From Parachryseolinea silvisoli (GTDB taxonomy: Bacteria; Bacteroidota; Bacteroidia; Cytophagales; Cyclobacteriaceae): a DNA stretch of 64,000 bases. The notes under the pieces were generated by a model. The model ran no database searches and was not told the DNA's origin. It was given only the letters and a program-made list of their open reading frames with translations. This document shows positions 8,257 to 13,682 of the stretch, one piece after another. The stretch spans positions 806,001-870,000 of the forward strand of contig NZ_JAIOAO010000001.1 of the NCBI RefSeq assembly GCF_021190955.1, read 5' to 3'. The translations under genes and the position numbers were made by a program. Each line of letters starts with the position of its first letter. The first letter of the stretch is position 1.

Positions 8257-11200
8257 CTATACTGTTGCCACGGCCACGCCGGGCTTTTCGAAAACAAAAA
8301 TAACATTCGAAGTAAACCGCGTCTCGTCCTGTACCACCACGCGCAGTCCATACCGCTCGGCCAGGGCCGTCAGCGCTTTGCCGGATACAAAGTTAAGCGC
8401 TTGCTCGGCTTTATTGAATTTCAGCAACCGTACGGAAAAGAACTCCGTGAGCTTCGTGCCCCGGTGGCGCTCGGCCAGGTCGGCGTTGCCATCGCGCACG
8501 ATCAACCTTCCGCCGGGCTGTAACGCAGCAAAACACCGCACCAGCAAGATCTCCTGCGCCTCGGCGCTCAGGTAGTGCAATACATCGCTGATGATGATGA
8601 CATCGTAGGTCGCCAGATCGTATTGCATCACATCGGCCCGGTAAAACTGCAGCCGGTCCGTGCGCAAAAATCCATGCTGGGCCACCGCGATCTTTTCCGC
8701 GTCATAATCTACACCGGTAATCGTCCGACCGGACGACATGAATTGCAGCATGTAACACAAAAATCCATAGCCACAACCCAGGTCGAGCACCGTGGCCTGG
8801 CGCGGCACCAGCGCTTCAAAGGGCGCATAGTTCTTTTCCAGGCGCAGCTTAATCCGCATATACCACTCCAACACCGGCCCCTTGTACAGGTAGTTCAGGA
8901 TAAGCTTGTAGCGGTAATAATCGGGTGTCTCTTCGGCCGCCGCAAGACGTTTATATTCTTCCTTGAAATAGCGGCCGATCTTCTTGGTACGCTCGGCGTA
9001 CCCCGTGCCGAAGCGCGGGTCGTCGATCTCGATCGGCGGCAGGAACTCCAGCGCCACATGGCAGTCGTTGAGATAATGCTCGCCTTTCGGAATGGCCACG
9101 CCTACCCCGTGCATCAGCAAGGGCTGTACCGGCAGACGCAACGCCTCGGCCATGTAAAACGCACCTTTGTGAAAACGGCCGAGGGTACCATCCGCGGAGC
9201 GTGTCCCTTCGGGGAACACCACGACAGAGTATCCTTCGTTAATGCGATCTTGTAAACGCGCCACGCTATCACCTGCGCCGTCCATAACAGGGTAATAATC
9301 TGCCAGGCGCACCACCGCGCCAAAGACAGGCGAGTTCCACACCCACTTGTTGGTGAGCAGCACCAGTTTGGGGTGCAGCATGGTCGTCAGGAGTATATCG
9401 AGGATCGAGCTGTGGTTGCACACGATCATGCTGGCGCGGGAGAATGTAGCCGGTGTACGACCGATCACCTTGCGGTGAAAGCGCGGTGCCAGGGATACCA
9501 GCGAGCCGGTAAAGAAACCCAGCATGGCATGGTATAGCACACGAATCTGTTTACGCCCGAAAGGCACCAGCTTCAGTAATCCCCCCGTTACCGTCAGGAA
9601 CACCGCGCCAAAGAGAAAAAAGCTATAGGTAAAGAGCGTTTTGGCCAGGCCCAGGAAGGTCATCGGCGTGCGCCCGCGCTGCGTGCGCCGGGTAATCAAT
9701 GTACGGAACAAGAAGGGCTCCAGTGTCTGTGCCATGACAAACACACAAACAATGCCGATGATGGAGATCGCCGCAATGGAACGCAAGGCAGGGTGTTTGG
9801 CGAAGATCAAGACGCCCAGGCCGCAGATAGTCGTCACTGCCGACAGGAAAATAGACGTGCGCACGACGGGCATCAGCTTGCGCCCCGTGCGATACTCCTG
9901 TTGCAAGCCGTCCATGATAAAGATACTATAGTCGTCGCCCAAACCGAAAATGAACGTCGACACCATCACGTTGATGATGTTAAACTCGATGCCTGCCAGG
10001 GCCATGATGCCCAGAATCCAGATCCAGGTGACGAGCATCGGCACAAACGTAATCAGCGTAAGCTCGATGCGGCCATACAGGATCAGCAATGTTACAAACA
10101 CCAGCACCGACGTAAAGGTGATGATGAAATTAAAGTCGGCGTGTATATACTCGACAAACAGGTTCGTCAGCATCTGGCGGTCCACGGCGTGCGCCGGTGT
10201 ACCGGCCAGTGCCTGATATACTTCAGGTTTCTTTTCAGGCGCCACCTGCGCCAGTGTGATGATGGTGGCTTTGCCATCCTTCTCGATGATATAATCGTCG
10301 AAGAACGCGGCGCGAAACGGTTGCCAGGCGTCGGCTGTGAGGGGCGTATAGGCACGGGTCAGCAGCGAGTCAAACCGTTGCACTACCAGAGGCGAGAATC
10401 GCAGCGCCGCCGCCTCGGCATGTACTGCCTCCTGTACCCTTGCGACGCGCCCGGCGTTCCAGAATGAATGCCAACGCTGGATCCGGATACGCTGCAACGA
10501 GTCGGACACCATCAGCAGCGATACCGACGCAACCTTGCCAACCTGACCCGTACGCCGCAAGGCTTCCAGCGGCGGTAGAGCCTGTTCATTGCGTCGCAGG
10601 GCGGCTTCCAGGTTGTCGCCCTCGGCCACGACATAGAGCGAACTGAGCGATGCCTGGTTTAACGACTCCAGCCGCTGCTGCGCCTCCCGCGTTTCGGGGC
10701 GCATAAAGTTCAGCCCGCTCATGTCGCTGTTGAATTTTACCTGACCGGCAAAATAAAAGAACAGCGGCGTGAGCAACAGGATGGCGTAGACGACATAGCG
10801 GTTGGACTCAAAGTCAAAGGAAATGATACGCTGCACAGCGTTGGGACGCGACGATGCCAGCAAGTCTTCGCGCAGCAGGTGTGGCAGGAAAATAAGGGAG
10901 CACAACGCAGCGCCGATCAGGCTAAAGCCTGCAAACAATCCAACGTCGCGCAGTACGACCGCGTTGGTGAACTGGAGGCAGAAGAACGCCAGCACCGTCG
11001 TGGTACTGCCGATCGTGAGCGGATGGGCGAGCTCGCGAATTACTTCCTCGGCATTGTGCGTATGCTTGAGCGCCACCATGTAGTGCAGCGAATAGTTTAC
11101 GGCAATCCCCAGAATGACGGCGCCCACCGCCAGCGCCAAGACCGACAGCGTGCCGTGTAGTAACGCAATACAAGAAAGTGAAAAGAGCGCGCCAAAGGCG

Positions 11201-12108
11201 ACCGGTATCATCATCAGGAACGGCACGCGCTTCTTGCGAAAGAAACCCAGGATGACAAGGATGAGCAGCCCCAGCATCAGCCCGACGGTGAGCATCGTGT
11301 CGGCCCGCAGCTGTCGCGCATTGCCGACAGCCACCACGGGGGCGCCAAAGCAAGAGGCCATCAGCCCCGGATGCTCCTGCGCGGTCTTGTCCATCAGGTC
11401 TTGCAGCTGGGCAAGAAACTCGGCATTGTGCCGGGTCTCCGACGGCGGGTATACCGGCTGTAGAAAGAACAGGATGTGCCGGTGGTCGCGTGTCATGATA
11501 AAATTGTCGTACAGCTCGTAGTTTTCGTCGTACTGCAGGCGCTGCAGTTTCTTCAGCACCAGGAACGAAAAACCCAGCGGATCCTGCTGAATGACTTGCT
11601 TCGTCACGATACCCGACGGCGAGATCAGCTGGCGGTAGTTATTTCGTAACACCTGGCGCGCGACGTCAGGTTGCGAGATCGAGTCGAGATGACGGTAGTC
11701 GGCATCTTCCAGGAAGATGGGCAACGCTTGGGGTATAGCATGGAACAGCTCCAGGATGCGACTGTCGTCCACGCGTGCCGACACGTGTTTCACAAACGGA
11801 GCAAGCGTTGTTTCAATGCGGCTCGCCAACGTGTCGGCAAAGACCACGAGGCTGTCGGGCTGGGCCTGGGTGGCACTGTCGCGCACCGAGACCATCACCA
11901 CGATGCGTTCGACAAACTTCGAATGTTGGAAGATGTAGTTGATCTTTTCCACGCGGGGGTCATCGGGCAGAAATTGCGTGATGTCCTCCTCCAGCTCCAG
12001 GCGCAGGGCGCCTGCGCCGAGCAGGGCAATGGTGCCTGCGAAGACTAACCAGAACGCCGTACGGCGAGGCTTGAAAAACCGGTAAAGCGATAAGAAAAGC
12101 TGCTCCAT
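8257..12108 (-). CDS. Three-domain fusion: MMPL exporter, PlsC-like acyltransferase, SAM methyltransferase
   Basis: 1283 residues from the ATG at 12108 (MEQLFLSLYRFF); the frame is open up to 12171 but that part lies inside the DUF2062 gene. Residues 1 to about 815 are an RND/MMPL transporter: a TM helix, a large extracytoplasmic loop, a TM bundle (VGLMLGLLILVILGFF onward), then a second copy of the same plan. Residues about 860-1065 are a 1-acyl-glycerol-3-phosphate acyltransferase domain with NHSSILD (HX4D) at about 896 and FPEGTRS. Residues about 1090-1283 are a class I methyltransferase with VLDLGCGYG at about 1107. In Gram-negative aryl-polyene clusters these activities are separate genes. 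Likely role: move the lipid-linked polyene across the inner membrane, with acyl transfer and methylation coupled. Confidence 0.85.
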   Translation of the reverse strand: MEQLFLSLYRFFKPRRTAFWLVFAGTIALLGAGALRLELEEDITQFLPDDPRVEKINYIFQHSKFVERIVVMVSVRDSATQAQPDSLVVFADTLASRIETTLAPFVKHVSARVDDSRILELFHAIPQALPIFLEDADYRHLDSISQPDVARQVLRNNYRQLISPSGIVTKQVIQQDPLGFSFLVLKKLQRLQYDENYELYDNFIMTRDHRHILFFLQPVYPPSETRHNAEFLAQLQDLMDKTAQEHPGLMASCFGAPVVAVGNARQLRADTMLTVGLMLGLLILVILGFFRKKRVPFLMMIPVAFGALFSLSCIALLHGTLSVLALAVGAVILGIAVNYSLHYMVALKHTHNAEEVIRELAHPLTIGSTTTVLAFFCLQFTNAVVLRDVGLFAGFSLIGAALCSLIFLPHLLREDLLASSRPNAVQRIISFDFESNRYVVYAILLLTPLFFYFAGQVKFNSDMSGLNFMRPETREAQQRLESLNQASLSSLYVVAEGDNLEAALRRNEQALPPLEALRRTGQVGKVASVSLLMVSDSLQRIRIQRWHSFWNAGRVARVQEAVHAEAAALRFSPLVVQRFDSLLTRAYTPLTADAWQPFRAAFFDDYIIEKDGKATIITLAQVAPEKKPEVYQALAGTPAHAVDRQMLTNLFVEYIHADFNFIITFTSVLVFVTLLILYGRIELTLITFVPMLVTWIWILGIMALAGIEFNIINVMVSTFIFGLGDDYSIFIMDGLQQEYRTGRKLMPVVRTSIFLSAVTTICGLGVLIFAKHPALRSIAAISIIGIVCVFVMAQTLEPFLFRTLITRRTQRGRTPMTFLGLAKTLFTYSFFLFGAVFLTVTGGLLKLVPFGRKQIRVLYHAMLGFFTGSLVSLAPRFHRKVIGRTPATFSRASMIVCNHSSILDILLTTMLHPKLVLLTNKWVWNSPVFGAVVRLADYYPVMDGAGDSVARLQDRINEGYSVVVFPEGTRSADGTLGRFHKGAFYMAEALRLPVQPLLMHGVGVAIPKGEHYLNDCHVALEFLPPIEIDDPRFGTGYAERTKKIGRYFKEEYKRLAAAEETPDYYRYKLILNYLYKGPVLEWYMRIKLRLEKNYAPFEALVPRQATVLDLGCGYGFLCYMLQFMSSGRTITGVDYDAEKIAVAQHGFLRTDRLQFYRADVMQYDLATYDVIIISDVLHYLSAEAQEILLVRCFAALQPGGRLIVRDGNADLAERHRGTKLTEFFSVRLLKFNKAEQALNFVSGKALTALAERYGLRVVVQDETRFTSNVIFVFEKPGVAVATV

Positions 12109-12127
12109 CTGAACCGGCAAATATACC

Positions 12128-12493
12128 TTATTTCTCAGACCGGCGCATGCGAAGTACCTTAACCAGCACAAACGTTAATAATCCAGAAACAAGGCCAGCT
12201 GCGACGGCGAGCGTGGTCGCACCCAACACGTATTGCAGAAAGCTATCCTGTAGTTGCGCGAAATCGATGTCGCGGCTAAAGCGAATGTACTGCGCGCGGT
12301 CGCCCATCCAGATGCGCCCCGTAAGGTGACTGAGAAACAGAATCAGCGGGATCATGGGCGGTATGCTGATGTTGGCCGTCAGGATCACCAGCGCTTTATT
12401 CAGCCGCAAGGCAAACGCCAGCGCGATGGCCAGGATAAGCTGAAAGCCCCATAGTGGCACAATGCCCATAAAAATCCCAACCCCCACCGACAC
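12128..12493 (-). CDS. DUF2062 membrane domain, probable C-terminal half of the glycosyltransferase
   Basis: From the GTG at 12493 this gives 121 residues, with the DUF2062 core MGIVPLWGFQ, several membrane helices and NISIPPMIP. The start is doubtful. The same frame stays open upstream to about 12570, and the peptide there (FRQVLREVRTQLFDPRES, then AGVKAVSVGVGIF) is what one expects of the normal DUF2062 N-terminus, but it holds no ATG, GTG or TTG. The upstream GT2 gene enters this frame by a -1 shift at a run of ten A. I therefore think this is the second half of a GT2-DUF2062 protein made by slippage, or a gene split by a real or sequencing indel. Confidence 0.7.
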   Translation of the reverse strand: MSVGVGIFMGIVPLWGFQLILAIALAFALRLNKALVILTANISIPPMIPLILFLSHLTGRIWMGDRAQYIRFSRDIDFAQLQDSFLQYVLGATTLAVAAGLVSGLLTFVLVKVLRMRRSEK

Positions 12494-12498
12494 GGCTT

Positions 12499-13317
12499 TT
12501 ACGCCGGCCGATTCCCGGGGGTCAAAGAGCTGGGTGCGGACTTCCCGGAGGACTTGCCTGAAGTTTTTTTTTTAAGTCCCCGGAAGAGATCGCGGGGTTT
12601 GATATACAGCAGGGTGATGGTCACCAGGACTGTATTAAGTACACTGATCCGCGAGAAATCGCGGAAGGGTCGAAAATGCGTAATGCGTTTTTCCTTCTCC
12701 GGATAAAACACTTTTACCGGTACCTCCGTCACTTCAATTCCCGCCCAGGCGGCCCGTACCAATACTTCAATCTCAAATTCGTATTTGCGGGTAAAGAATG
12801 TAAAGTCGCGCAACGCCTTTACGGGGTACAGCCGGTATCCGCTTTGCGTGTCACGCATCGTCAGGCCCGTTTCAAACTTATACCAGAAGTTAGAGAACTT
12901 GTTGCCAAAGCTGCTTTTGCCGGGCACGCTGGCCTGGTCCATGTTACGCGCGCCGATGATAATGGCGTTGGGTGACGTCTTCAGTTTTTCCAGGAACACC
13001 GGCAGGTCGTCGGCATAGTGCTGCCCGTCGGAGTCGATGGTAATGGCATAGTCGTACCCTAATGCCACGGCCTTTGCAAAGCCCTGGCGCAGCGCATAAC
13101 CCTTGCCGCGGTTCTGTGTATAATCCACCAGGGCTACCTGTGGGTACCGTTCGGCCAGCATCTCGCGCGTGCCGTCGGTGGCGCCGTCATTCACCACCAC
13201 CACGTGCCGCGTATACTGCAGCACGTCGTGCAACACGCTTGCCAACGGTACAGCGTTGTTATAGGTGGGGATCAGCACGCATACGTTGCGCTGCTCGAAT
13301 GCGGCGTCCATCGTCAT
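12499..13317 (-). CDS. Family 2 glycosyltransferase (dolichyl-phosphate-sugar synthase type)
   Basis: 272 residues. GT-A fold motifs are plain: VLIPTYNN near the N-terminus, VVVNDGATDGT, and the DXD-like DSDGQHYADD where the metal and nucleotide sugar bind; the RDTQSGYRLYP segment is typical of DPM/UGT-like GT2 enzymes. It would transfer a sugar to a lipid or polyene head group on the inner membrane. The zero-frame C-terminus after the A10 tract (TSGKSSGKSAPSSLTPGNRPA) is low-complexity and looks like an out-of-frame tail, while the -1 frame continues into DUF2062. Starts with an ATGA overlap on the dehydratase stop. Confidence 0.85.
   Translation of the reverse strand: MTMDAAFEQRNVCVLIPTYNNAVPLASVLHDVLQYTRHVVVVNDGATDGTREMLAERYPQVALVDYTQNRGKGYALRQGFAKAVALGYDYAITIDSDGQHYADDLPVFLEKLKTSPNAIIIGARNMDQASVPGKSSFGNKFSNFWYKFETGLTMRDTQSGYRLYPVKALRDFTFFTRKYEFEIEVLVRAAWAGIEVTEVPVKVFYPEKEKRITHFRPFRDFSRISVLNTVLVTITLLYIKPRDLFRGLKKKTSGKSSGKSAPSSLTPGNRPA
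12564..12573 (-). promoter_or_regulatory. A10 slippage/frameshift site joining GT2 to DUF2062
   Basis: On the coding (minus) strand the sequence is CTT, ten A, then CTT. In the GT2 frame it reads L-K-K-K-T; a -1 shift gives K-K-K-N-F-R-Q and then the complete DUF2062 domain. A TAA in the -1 frame sits directly before the A run and the next stop in the zero frame comes 21 codons after it, so the two frames meet only here. Such A runs are classic sites of transcriptional slippage; a homopolymer sequencing error would look the same. Confidence 0.6.
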
Positions 13318-13682
13318 GCGGCCGGGGATAAAGTGCCTTTGAATTTAAAGAAGATCACTGCGTCCGCCGACAAGCTACCGTCAACAGTATAACGACCGCC
13401 GGCCAGGGTATAGGATACCGTCACCACGACTTCGCTATGCTCGGTGGGATTCAGGATCGAGAGAAATTTCATGTTATCGGCCGTCGTAATCTGCAGCGGC
13501 GCACCGACACTTTGCTCGACAAGCTCGCGCACGATCTGCATCATACATACGCCCGGCACGACGGGCTGCCCGGGAAAGTGCCCGTTAAAAATGCGGTGGC
13601 CGGCATCGAGGGTAATCACCGCACGCGCCGAGGCCGGCGCCAGGTCCTTTGTTACAATATGGTAAAAGTTATCCAGGAGCAT
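13314..13682 (-). CDS. FabZ-like 3-hydroxyacyl-ACP dehydratase, His-bearing subunit
   Basis: 122-residue single hotdog domain. The FabZ signature is present as NGHFPGQPVVPGV with the catalytic His at 35. By FabZ spacing, the partner Glu should be at position 49, where this protein has Gln (VCMMQIV). The second hotdog protein of the cluster (23366-23797) shows the reverse: a Glu but no His. The two therefore look like complementary halves of one heterodimeric dehydratase, as described for ApeI/ApeP in aryl-polyene synthesis. It would dehydrate the 3-hydroxyacyl-ACP after each elongation round. Confidence 0.82.
   Translation of the reverse strand: MLLDNFYHIVTKDLAPASARAVITLDAGHRIFNGHFPGQPVVPGVCMMQIVRELVEQSVGAPLQITTADNMKFLSILNPTEHSEVVVTVSYTLAGGRYTVDGSLSADAVIFFKFKGTLSPAA

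Follow-up and report, generated by a model that had tools for sequence, protein, structure and literature searches.

Short and long products from a single gene with a run of A in its sense strand are known for dnaX, which gives tau and gamma; the run consists of nine A in Thermus thermophilus and of ten A in a form of the gene that is divided into two ORFs. In T. thermophilus, the full-length protein is the unslipped product (PMC3711429, PMC1088944). For the two-ORF dnaX genes with 10 A, which are known from GeneTack clusters, transcriptional realignment was proposed by analogy with Thermus (PMC3711429). In Citrobacter rodentium, the interrupted gene tssM1 gives two length variants, at about 20%, by polymerase slippage on an 11-A run, and both variants are needed (PMC4256274). 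Among the users of such slippage surveyed in PMC1088944, IS elements formed the largest group.

The arrangement described here, in which a GT2 glycosyltransferase and a DUF2062 membrane domain are joined across a run of A, resembles dnaX in the length of the sense-strand run and in its putative short and long products; the two-ORF dnaX has the same geometry, with a -1 offset, and is present in these very genomes. However, gene and function differ, and the long product of GT2-DUF2062 would need a slip, whereas that of T. thermophilus dnaX is made without one. The arrangement is likewise comparable to tssM1 as an interrupted gene with two putative length variants, except that tssM1 encodes a T6SS protein of one species, whereas GT2-DUF2062 is a glycosyltransferase arrangement that is old and extends across a clade. 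A literature search that included the main texts of PMC3711429 and PMC5009743 (the first 300,000 characters of the latter) revealed no case of slippage in GT2-DUF2062 or in topoisomerase IV subunit A; a corresponding cluster in the GeneTack database may exist.

The window, that is, the whole stretch of DNA that was analysed (64,000 nucleotides of Parachryseolinea silvisoli), contains the following features at and around the junction:

12499..13317, minus strand: GT2 glycosyltransferase, 0-frame ORF of 272 aa, matching PF00535 (Glycos_transf_2) with E 5e-23
12564..12573, minus strand: candidate A10 slippage run (T10 on the plus strand), 0-frame codons AAA AAA AAA A..
12572..12574, minus strand: TAA in the -1 frame, directly 5' of the A run, present in 17/19 species
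12128..12571, minus strand: DUF2062 membrane domain in the -1 frame, matching PF09835 with E 2.5e-19
13314..13682, minus strand: FabA-like dehydratase, overlapping the GT2 start by 4 bases
8257..12171, minus strand: MMPL exporter/acyltransferase/methyltransferase ORF in its longest reading, with the first ATG downstream of the DUF2062 stop

The sequence-only reading of this DNA had proposed that the GT2 frame meets ten A and soon stops, that DUF2062 is encoded only in the -1 frame beginning at the run, and that this frame has no usable start. All of this was confirmed. The GT2 frame of the minus strand reads CTT AAA AAA AAA ACT TCA across the run (12573-12564) and stops 24 codons past the run start. 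The -1 frame reads TAA AAA AAA AAC TTC AGG; after the TAA (12574-12572), it contains 147 open codons (12571-12131) and ends with a stop at 12130-12128. Both domains were assigned by Pfam with a wide margin, PF00535 scoring 82.3 bits against a curated cut-off of 23.3 and PF09835 scoring 70.1 bits against a cut-off of 27.4. In the DUF2062 frame, 26 codons precede the earliest ATG, GTG or TTG, a GTG that lies inside the conserved part of the domain. The run is the sole single-base run of at least ten in the 64 kb and one of 8 distinct runs of at least ten A (9 overlapping hits) in the 7.95-Mb genome.

To place this junction among relatives, a genus sample of 7 genomes, including that of the window, and a family sample of 295 genomes were used; the figures 295 and 390 both denote samples of a larger family group. 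The GT2-DUF2062 gene was found in 7/7 genus genomes. A DUF2062 match was found in 60 of the 295 family-sample genomes, a good part of these matches being distant, short stand-alone proteins. Junctions were read at 31 genus and family loci (two of them from the same genome) and at 80 GTDB loci, which were the best 80 of 402 relatives. Five of these 80, all from Mucilaginibacter (L109, L110, L120, L130 and L131), had no GT2 in the fetched stretch. The remaining 75 comprised 16 loci with a -1 offset at 10-11 A and 59 single-frame fusions. Together with the window genome and the genomes G166 and G030, the 16 GTDB loci gave a set of 19 species from Dawidia, Chryseolinea, Ohtaekwangia, Chryseosolibacter and their relatives (Cytophagales, by the taxonomy of two of the genera). 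Species are the counting unit here and do not represent independent events; a few of them are closely paired, for example Ohtaekwangia koreensis with nbed49b3. The identity between the window protein and its Dawidia soli counterpart is 93%.

In all 19 species the run was 10 or 11 A long, the 0 frame had the reading AAA AAA AAA A, and the domain lay in the -1 frame, with 0/19 in frame. Even in the four species with A11, where the adjacent base is also A, the frame was still off. A run within one continuous frame, which the sequence-only reading had named as evidence against recoding, was thus seen in no run-bearing clade member. The TAA that was said to make the junction exact is present in the window and most of the other species and is not required, since it is replaced by CTA or CTC in two of them. 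The flanks and the codon before the run also varied, and the GT2 stop lay 4 to 43 codons from the run start, depending on the species. Two clade members, Pseudochryseolinea flava (L073) and Cytophagales UWPOB_CYTO2 (L076), have no run and encode GT2-DUF2062 in one frame. Separate, normally started DUF2062 genes, which had also been regarded as contrary evidence, do occur outside the clade: all five stand-alone frames of Mucilaginibacter, which are members of the same close family, have an ATG upstream of the domain. Because no GT2 neighbours these genes, they have no bearing on the junction.

The single-frame fusions of Chitinophagaceae and Sphingobacteriaceae consist of the same two domains and belong to the same protein family by tree, and they differ from the window gene in having one continuous frame. 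Among the 59 such fusions in the best 80 of 402 relatives, 12 (L090, L115, L082, L116 and others) have 9-10 A in frame near the linker; these may slip the other way, in which case slippage would yield the short form as a by-product. In another lineage, GT2-DUF2062 of L053 (G200) was found with A11 at the junction and an earlier frame break. The gene may be decaying, may contain errors of the draft assembly or may have a slip site of independent origin, and it was left out of the count.

Whether the offset could have been preserved by chance was judged from the divergence of the 19 species. Synonymous sites were near saturation, with a median pS of 0.82 in GT2 and 0.76 in DUF2062 over 171 pairs. 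The longest invariant nucleotide stretch in the 19-species alignment was the A10 itself; elsewhere, such stretches did not exceed 4 nucleotides in GT2 or 8 in DUF2062. AAA accounted for 56% of the Lys codons of these two genes in 21 clade members. Over the DUF2062 bases, the -1 frame contained 0 stops in 19/19 species, the 0 frame 4-16 and the +1 frame 2-9. The median pN/pS was 0.32 in the -1 frame and 0.25 in GT2. Because pN/pS was 0.35 in the part of DUF2062 that precedes the conserved ATG, this part is very likely translated. The run and the frame offset are therefore conserved across species beyond neutral expectation, and it is very likely that the change of frame is genuine and under selection, whether it comes about by transcriptional or by ribosomal means.

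The sequence-only reading had left the choice between recoding and a homopolymer error, and recoding was supported both by the off-frame A10/A11 in 19 species and by the one-frame fusion of the two run-less members. What speaks for a homopolymer sequencing error or a decaying pseudogene is that the run consists of ten A. However, the same -1 offset is shared by isolates, metagenome-assembled genomes and the one-contig genome G166, even at A11, with none of the 19 species in frame, and the -1 frame is under selection; an error or a decaying pseudogene is a practically negligible explanation.

The history of the arrangement was studied with a tree of 46 rows, consisting of 21 clade members and 25 hand-picked in-frame outgroup rows, from a quick search with SH-aLRT support only. 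The Dawidia/Chryseolinea/Ohtaekwangia clade formed one starred group. The arrangement label needed a minimum of three changes on the tree, two of which are forced by the starred branches alone. This history is best read as one gain followed by two losses. Since both run-less losses carry GT2 and DUF2062 in one frame, it may be concluded from the sequences that the fusion is a wanted product. In the simplest scenario, the arrangement would have arisen through an indel within a Lys-rich run of A that was in frame, and would then have been retained.

Four things were observed directly: how the sequence is arranged, that this arrangement is conserved, that selection acts on the -1 frame, and that relatives carry in-frame fusions. 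Slippage at the RNA level and its efficiency are what we infer from here on. The A10 run is probably a programmed transcriptional slippage site. RNA polymerase would stutter at the run and generate a mixed mRNA pool. Molecules with 10 A (or 10+3n) would give a short GT2, ending 4-43 codons from the run start with an unconserved tail, and molecules with one extra A (or two fewer) would give the GT2-DUF2062 fusion, in which the DUF2062 helices would form a C-terminal membrane domain as in enzymes of the ArnC/GtrB/DPMS type. A run length sufficient for slippage, about 9 A or more, was present in 19/19 species.

The main rival to transcriptional slippage is programmed -1 ribosomal frameshifting on A_AAA_AAA within the run, with a uniform mRNA. 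This heptamer (X_XXY_YYZ) occurs in a usable phase in all 19 species, is counted among the PRF motifs (PMC3711429), and could act alone or in addition to slippage. Frameshifting of 63%, 40% and 10% was reported for cassettes with 11, 9 and 7 A, respectively (PMC3711429), so in that assay longer runs also help whatever the route. However, seven A would be sufficient for the ribosomal route and A_AAA_AAG would also serve, yet 10-11 A are kept in 19/19 species; this retention of a run longer than the heptamer favours slippage. Slippage is also favoured because no downstream RNA structure is conserved: the RNAalifold consensus fold, which is pseudoknot-free, contained 0 conserved pairs, and single pseudoknot-free folds of 70 nt gave a mean z of +0.22 (range -1.82 to +1.65) in the 19 species, with no sign of a downstream stimulator. 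Stimulatory structures of this type are common, though not universal, at -1 ribosomal frameshift sites. A stretch able to pair with the anti-SD (-4.8 kcal/mol or lower) precedes the run in 15/19 species, which speaks for the ribosome, although the signal is modest and absent in 4/19. When it was compared with background positions of the same GT2, only Dawidia soli was extreme (fraction 0.00) and the other 14 lay at 0.05-0.28. Two further points favour slippage, namely, that the flanks and the GT2 stop drift while the run stays, and that dnaX and topoisomerase IV subunit A in the same genomes keep A10/A11, with the same-length runs sitting in other codon phases. Considering this, ribosomal frameshifting as the cause is unlikely.

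Two other explanations dispense with recoding. Glycosyltransferase genes with homopolymer runs are a classic type of contingency locus, and the run could gain or lose A by replication slippage in the DNA, so that DUF2062 would be switched ON or OFF between cells or strains. The dsbD gene, with A11 off frame in one relative and A10 in frame in two, suggests that such indels may occur in the clade. Nevertheless, the ON state was found in 0/19 run-bearing species (one genome per species), an outcome that would have a probability of (2/3)^19 = 4.5e-4 on the assumptions that one third are ON and that species are independent, the second of which does not hold; moreover, the replication gene dnaX has the same fixed offset. 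Phase variation is thus highly improbable. As for DUF2062 being a separate gene, started by reinitiation or at an unusual codon after GT2 termination, the overlap of the two frames is like that of translationally coupled genes, and stand-alone DUF2062 without a GT2 neighbour exists at the five Mucilaginibacter loci. Against this, the first ATG, GTG or TTG comes after at least 20 codons in 16/17 loci read (the remaining one has a TTG after 8), the residues before the first start are under the purifying selection described above, the GT2 stop moves between +4 and +43 codons, and 59 of the 75 loci with an adjacent GT2 (best 80 of 402 relatives) are single-frame fusions. A separate gene is therefore extremely improbable.

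Other genes with such runs were studied in the same genomes. In 20/21 genomes (L161-L181; L142 in the window genome), dnaX is divided into two ORFs, and A10 links them through a -1 shift; the exception is dnaX of G223, in which the run is lost and the frame is single. Topoisomerase IV subunit A has A10/A11 before its C-tail in 19/19 clade genomes (L191-L209; near 171925 of G000:C11 in the window genome) and also in G071, which belongs to the same family. When 61 genomes of the phylum were sampled, a match to this gene was found in 19, including the window genome and G071, and none was found in 42; the other 17 matched genes had no run of ten, one of them having A8. The codon phase of the run in dnaX and in topoisomerase IV subunit A differs from that in GT2, which indicates that length rather than phase is kept.

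The tails of topoisomerase IV subunit A differed between species. In ten clade genomes, the 0-frame tail ends in a GVGETIELEL-like motif and has a net charge of -15 to +2 (nine measured). In the nine others, the 0-frame tail is basic (+20 to +37), and the acidic tail that ends in the motif (-7 to -16) lies in the -1 frame. By its reading frames, the gene in these nine species needs a shift to make the conserved end. Shuffling of synonymous codons gave P values of 0.198 to 1.0 for the +1 neighbour of the motif-ending frame (18 loci). At loci with a long neighbour on the other side, the values for that neighbour were 0.0 to 0.136 (8 loci) and, for the window genome, 0.318. Because the openness of the neighbouring frames arises mostly from the composition of the motif tail, the claim is limited to nine species in which a shift is required and does not extend to selection acting on each basic tail. 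The gene looks like a source of alternative tails from overlapping frames.

The one-contig genome G166 contains 21 distinct runs of at least ten A (26 hits). When the frames were read, dnaX, topoisomerase IV subunit A, GT2-DUF2062 and dsbD were found to have the run in the sense CDS at a frame change, and two further genes carried it in frame. The dsbD run (L276-L278) is A11 and off frame in G166 and an in-frame A10 in the near relatives G184 and G140. Rescue by slippage, phase change and error are alternative explanations for the G166 gene, and dsbD is not claimed as a recoding case.

The products of GT2-DUF2062 were predicted from a structure model of the P. flava protein, a fusion that is naturally in frame; the model was built from a 44-row alignment (pLDDT 86.3, pTM 0.66). 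The model has a catalytic part of alternating strands and helices, a long helix at 216-246 and then the DUF2062 helices. Its best structural matches were ArnC, GtrB and dolichyl-phosphate mannose synthase, with TM-scores by query of 0.45-0.49 in the first eight matches. The window GT2 sequence matched chondroitin synthase 2z87 (E 1.1e-8) and dolichol-phosphate mannose synthase 5mlz (E 5.8e-8) in a phmmer search, and DUF2062 itself had no profile match to any solved chain at E 1. From the model and the sequence matches, the long form is probably a lipid-linked-sugar glycosyltransferase whose membrane domain is complete. The short form probably consists of the catalytic part and one hydrophobic helix; both products would have roles. 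ArnC, GtrB and dolichyl-phosphate mannose synthase, like the P. flava fusion, combine GT2 with C-terminal membrane helices. They are ordinary single-frame genes, unlike the off-frame GT2-DUF2062.

The overlapping FabA-like dehydratase and GT2 likely share one operon. On the other side, the domains of an MMPL exporter, an acyltransferase and a methyltransferase follow one another in the single ORF at 8257-12171. The other neighbours encode LolA, a polysaccharide deacetylase, two ketosynthases and a carrier protein. This gene content resembles the flexirubin export block of Chitinophaga pinensis, in which a comparable gene set was named flxP-flxU and a role in pigment export was suggested (PMC3992019). 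The sequence-only reading had called the window locus a pigment cluster, and by gene content this is supported. However, Dawidia soli and Chryseosolibacter histidini, both of which carry the off-frame arrangement, were negative in the flexirubin test, whereas the reference strains were positive (PMC9296434). Because of these flexirubin-negative species, the label is used here by gene content only.

These results concern a biosynthetic gene of the chromosome for which one gain is inferred, which kept the arrangement in 19 species and twice reverted to a plain fusion, and for which dnaX serves as a control in the same genomes. In these genomes, routine gene calling would presumably miss the DUF2062 part or cut it short. 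The gene set makes slippage on A10 by the RNA polymerase of this phylum directly testable, as well as the importance of a fixed ratio between a fully anchored and a truncated glycosyltransferase. Tentatively, and with slightly more doubt than confidence, we suggest that the clade may keep a small set of A10 slippage genes consisting of dnaX, topoisomerase IV subunit A and the aryl-polyene/flexirubin-type GT2-DUF2062, each with two C-termini, and that a tail swap in the topoisomerase and a change of polarity in GT2 form part of this. If this is true, topoisomerase IV subunit A would be made as an acidic-tail and a strongly basic-tail enzyme from overlapping frames, the default tail being swapped between species, and the polarity of GT2 would have been flipped from slip-to-short, as with the in-frame A9/A10 linkers of relatives, to slip-to-long.
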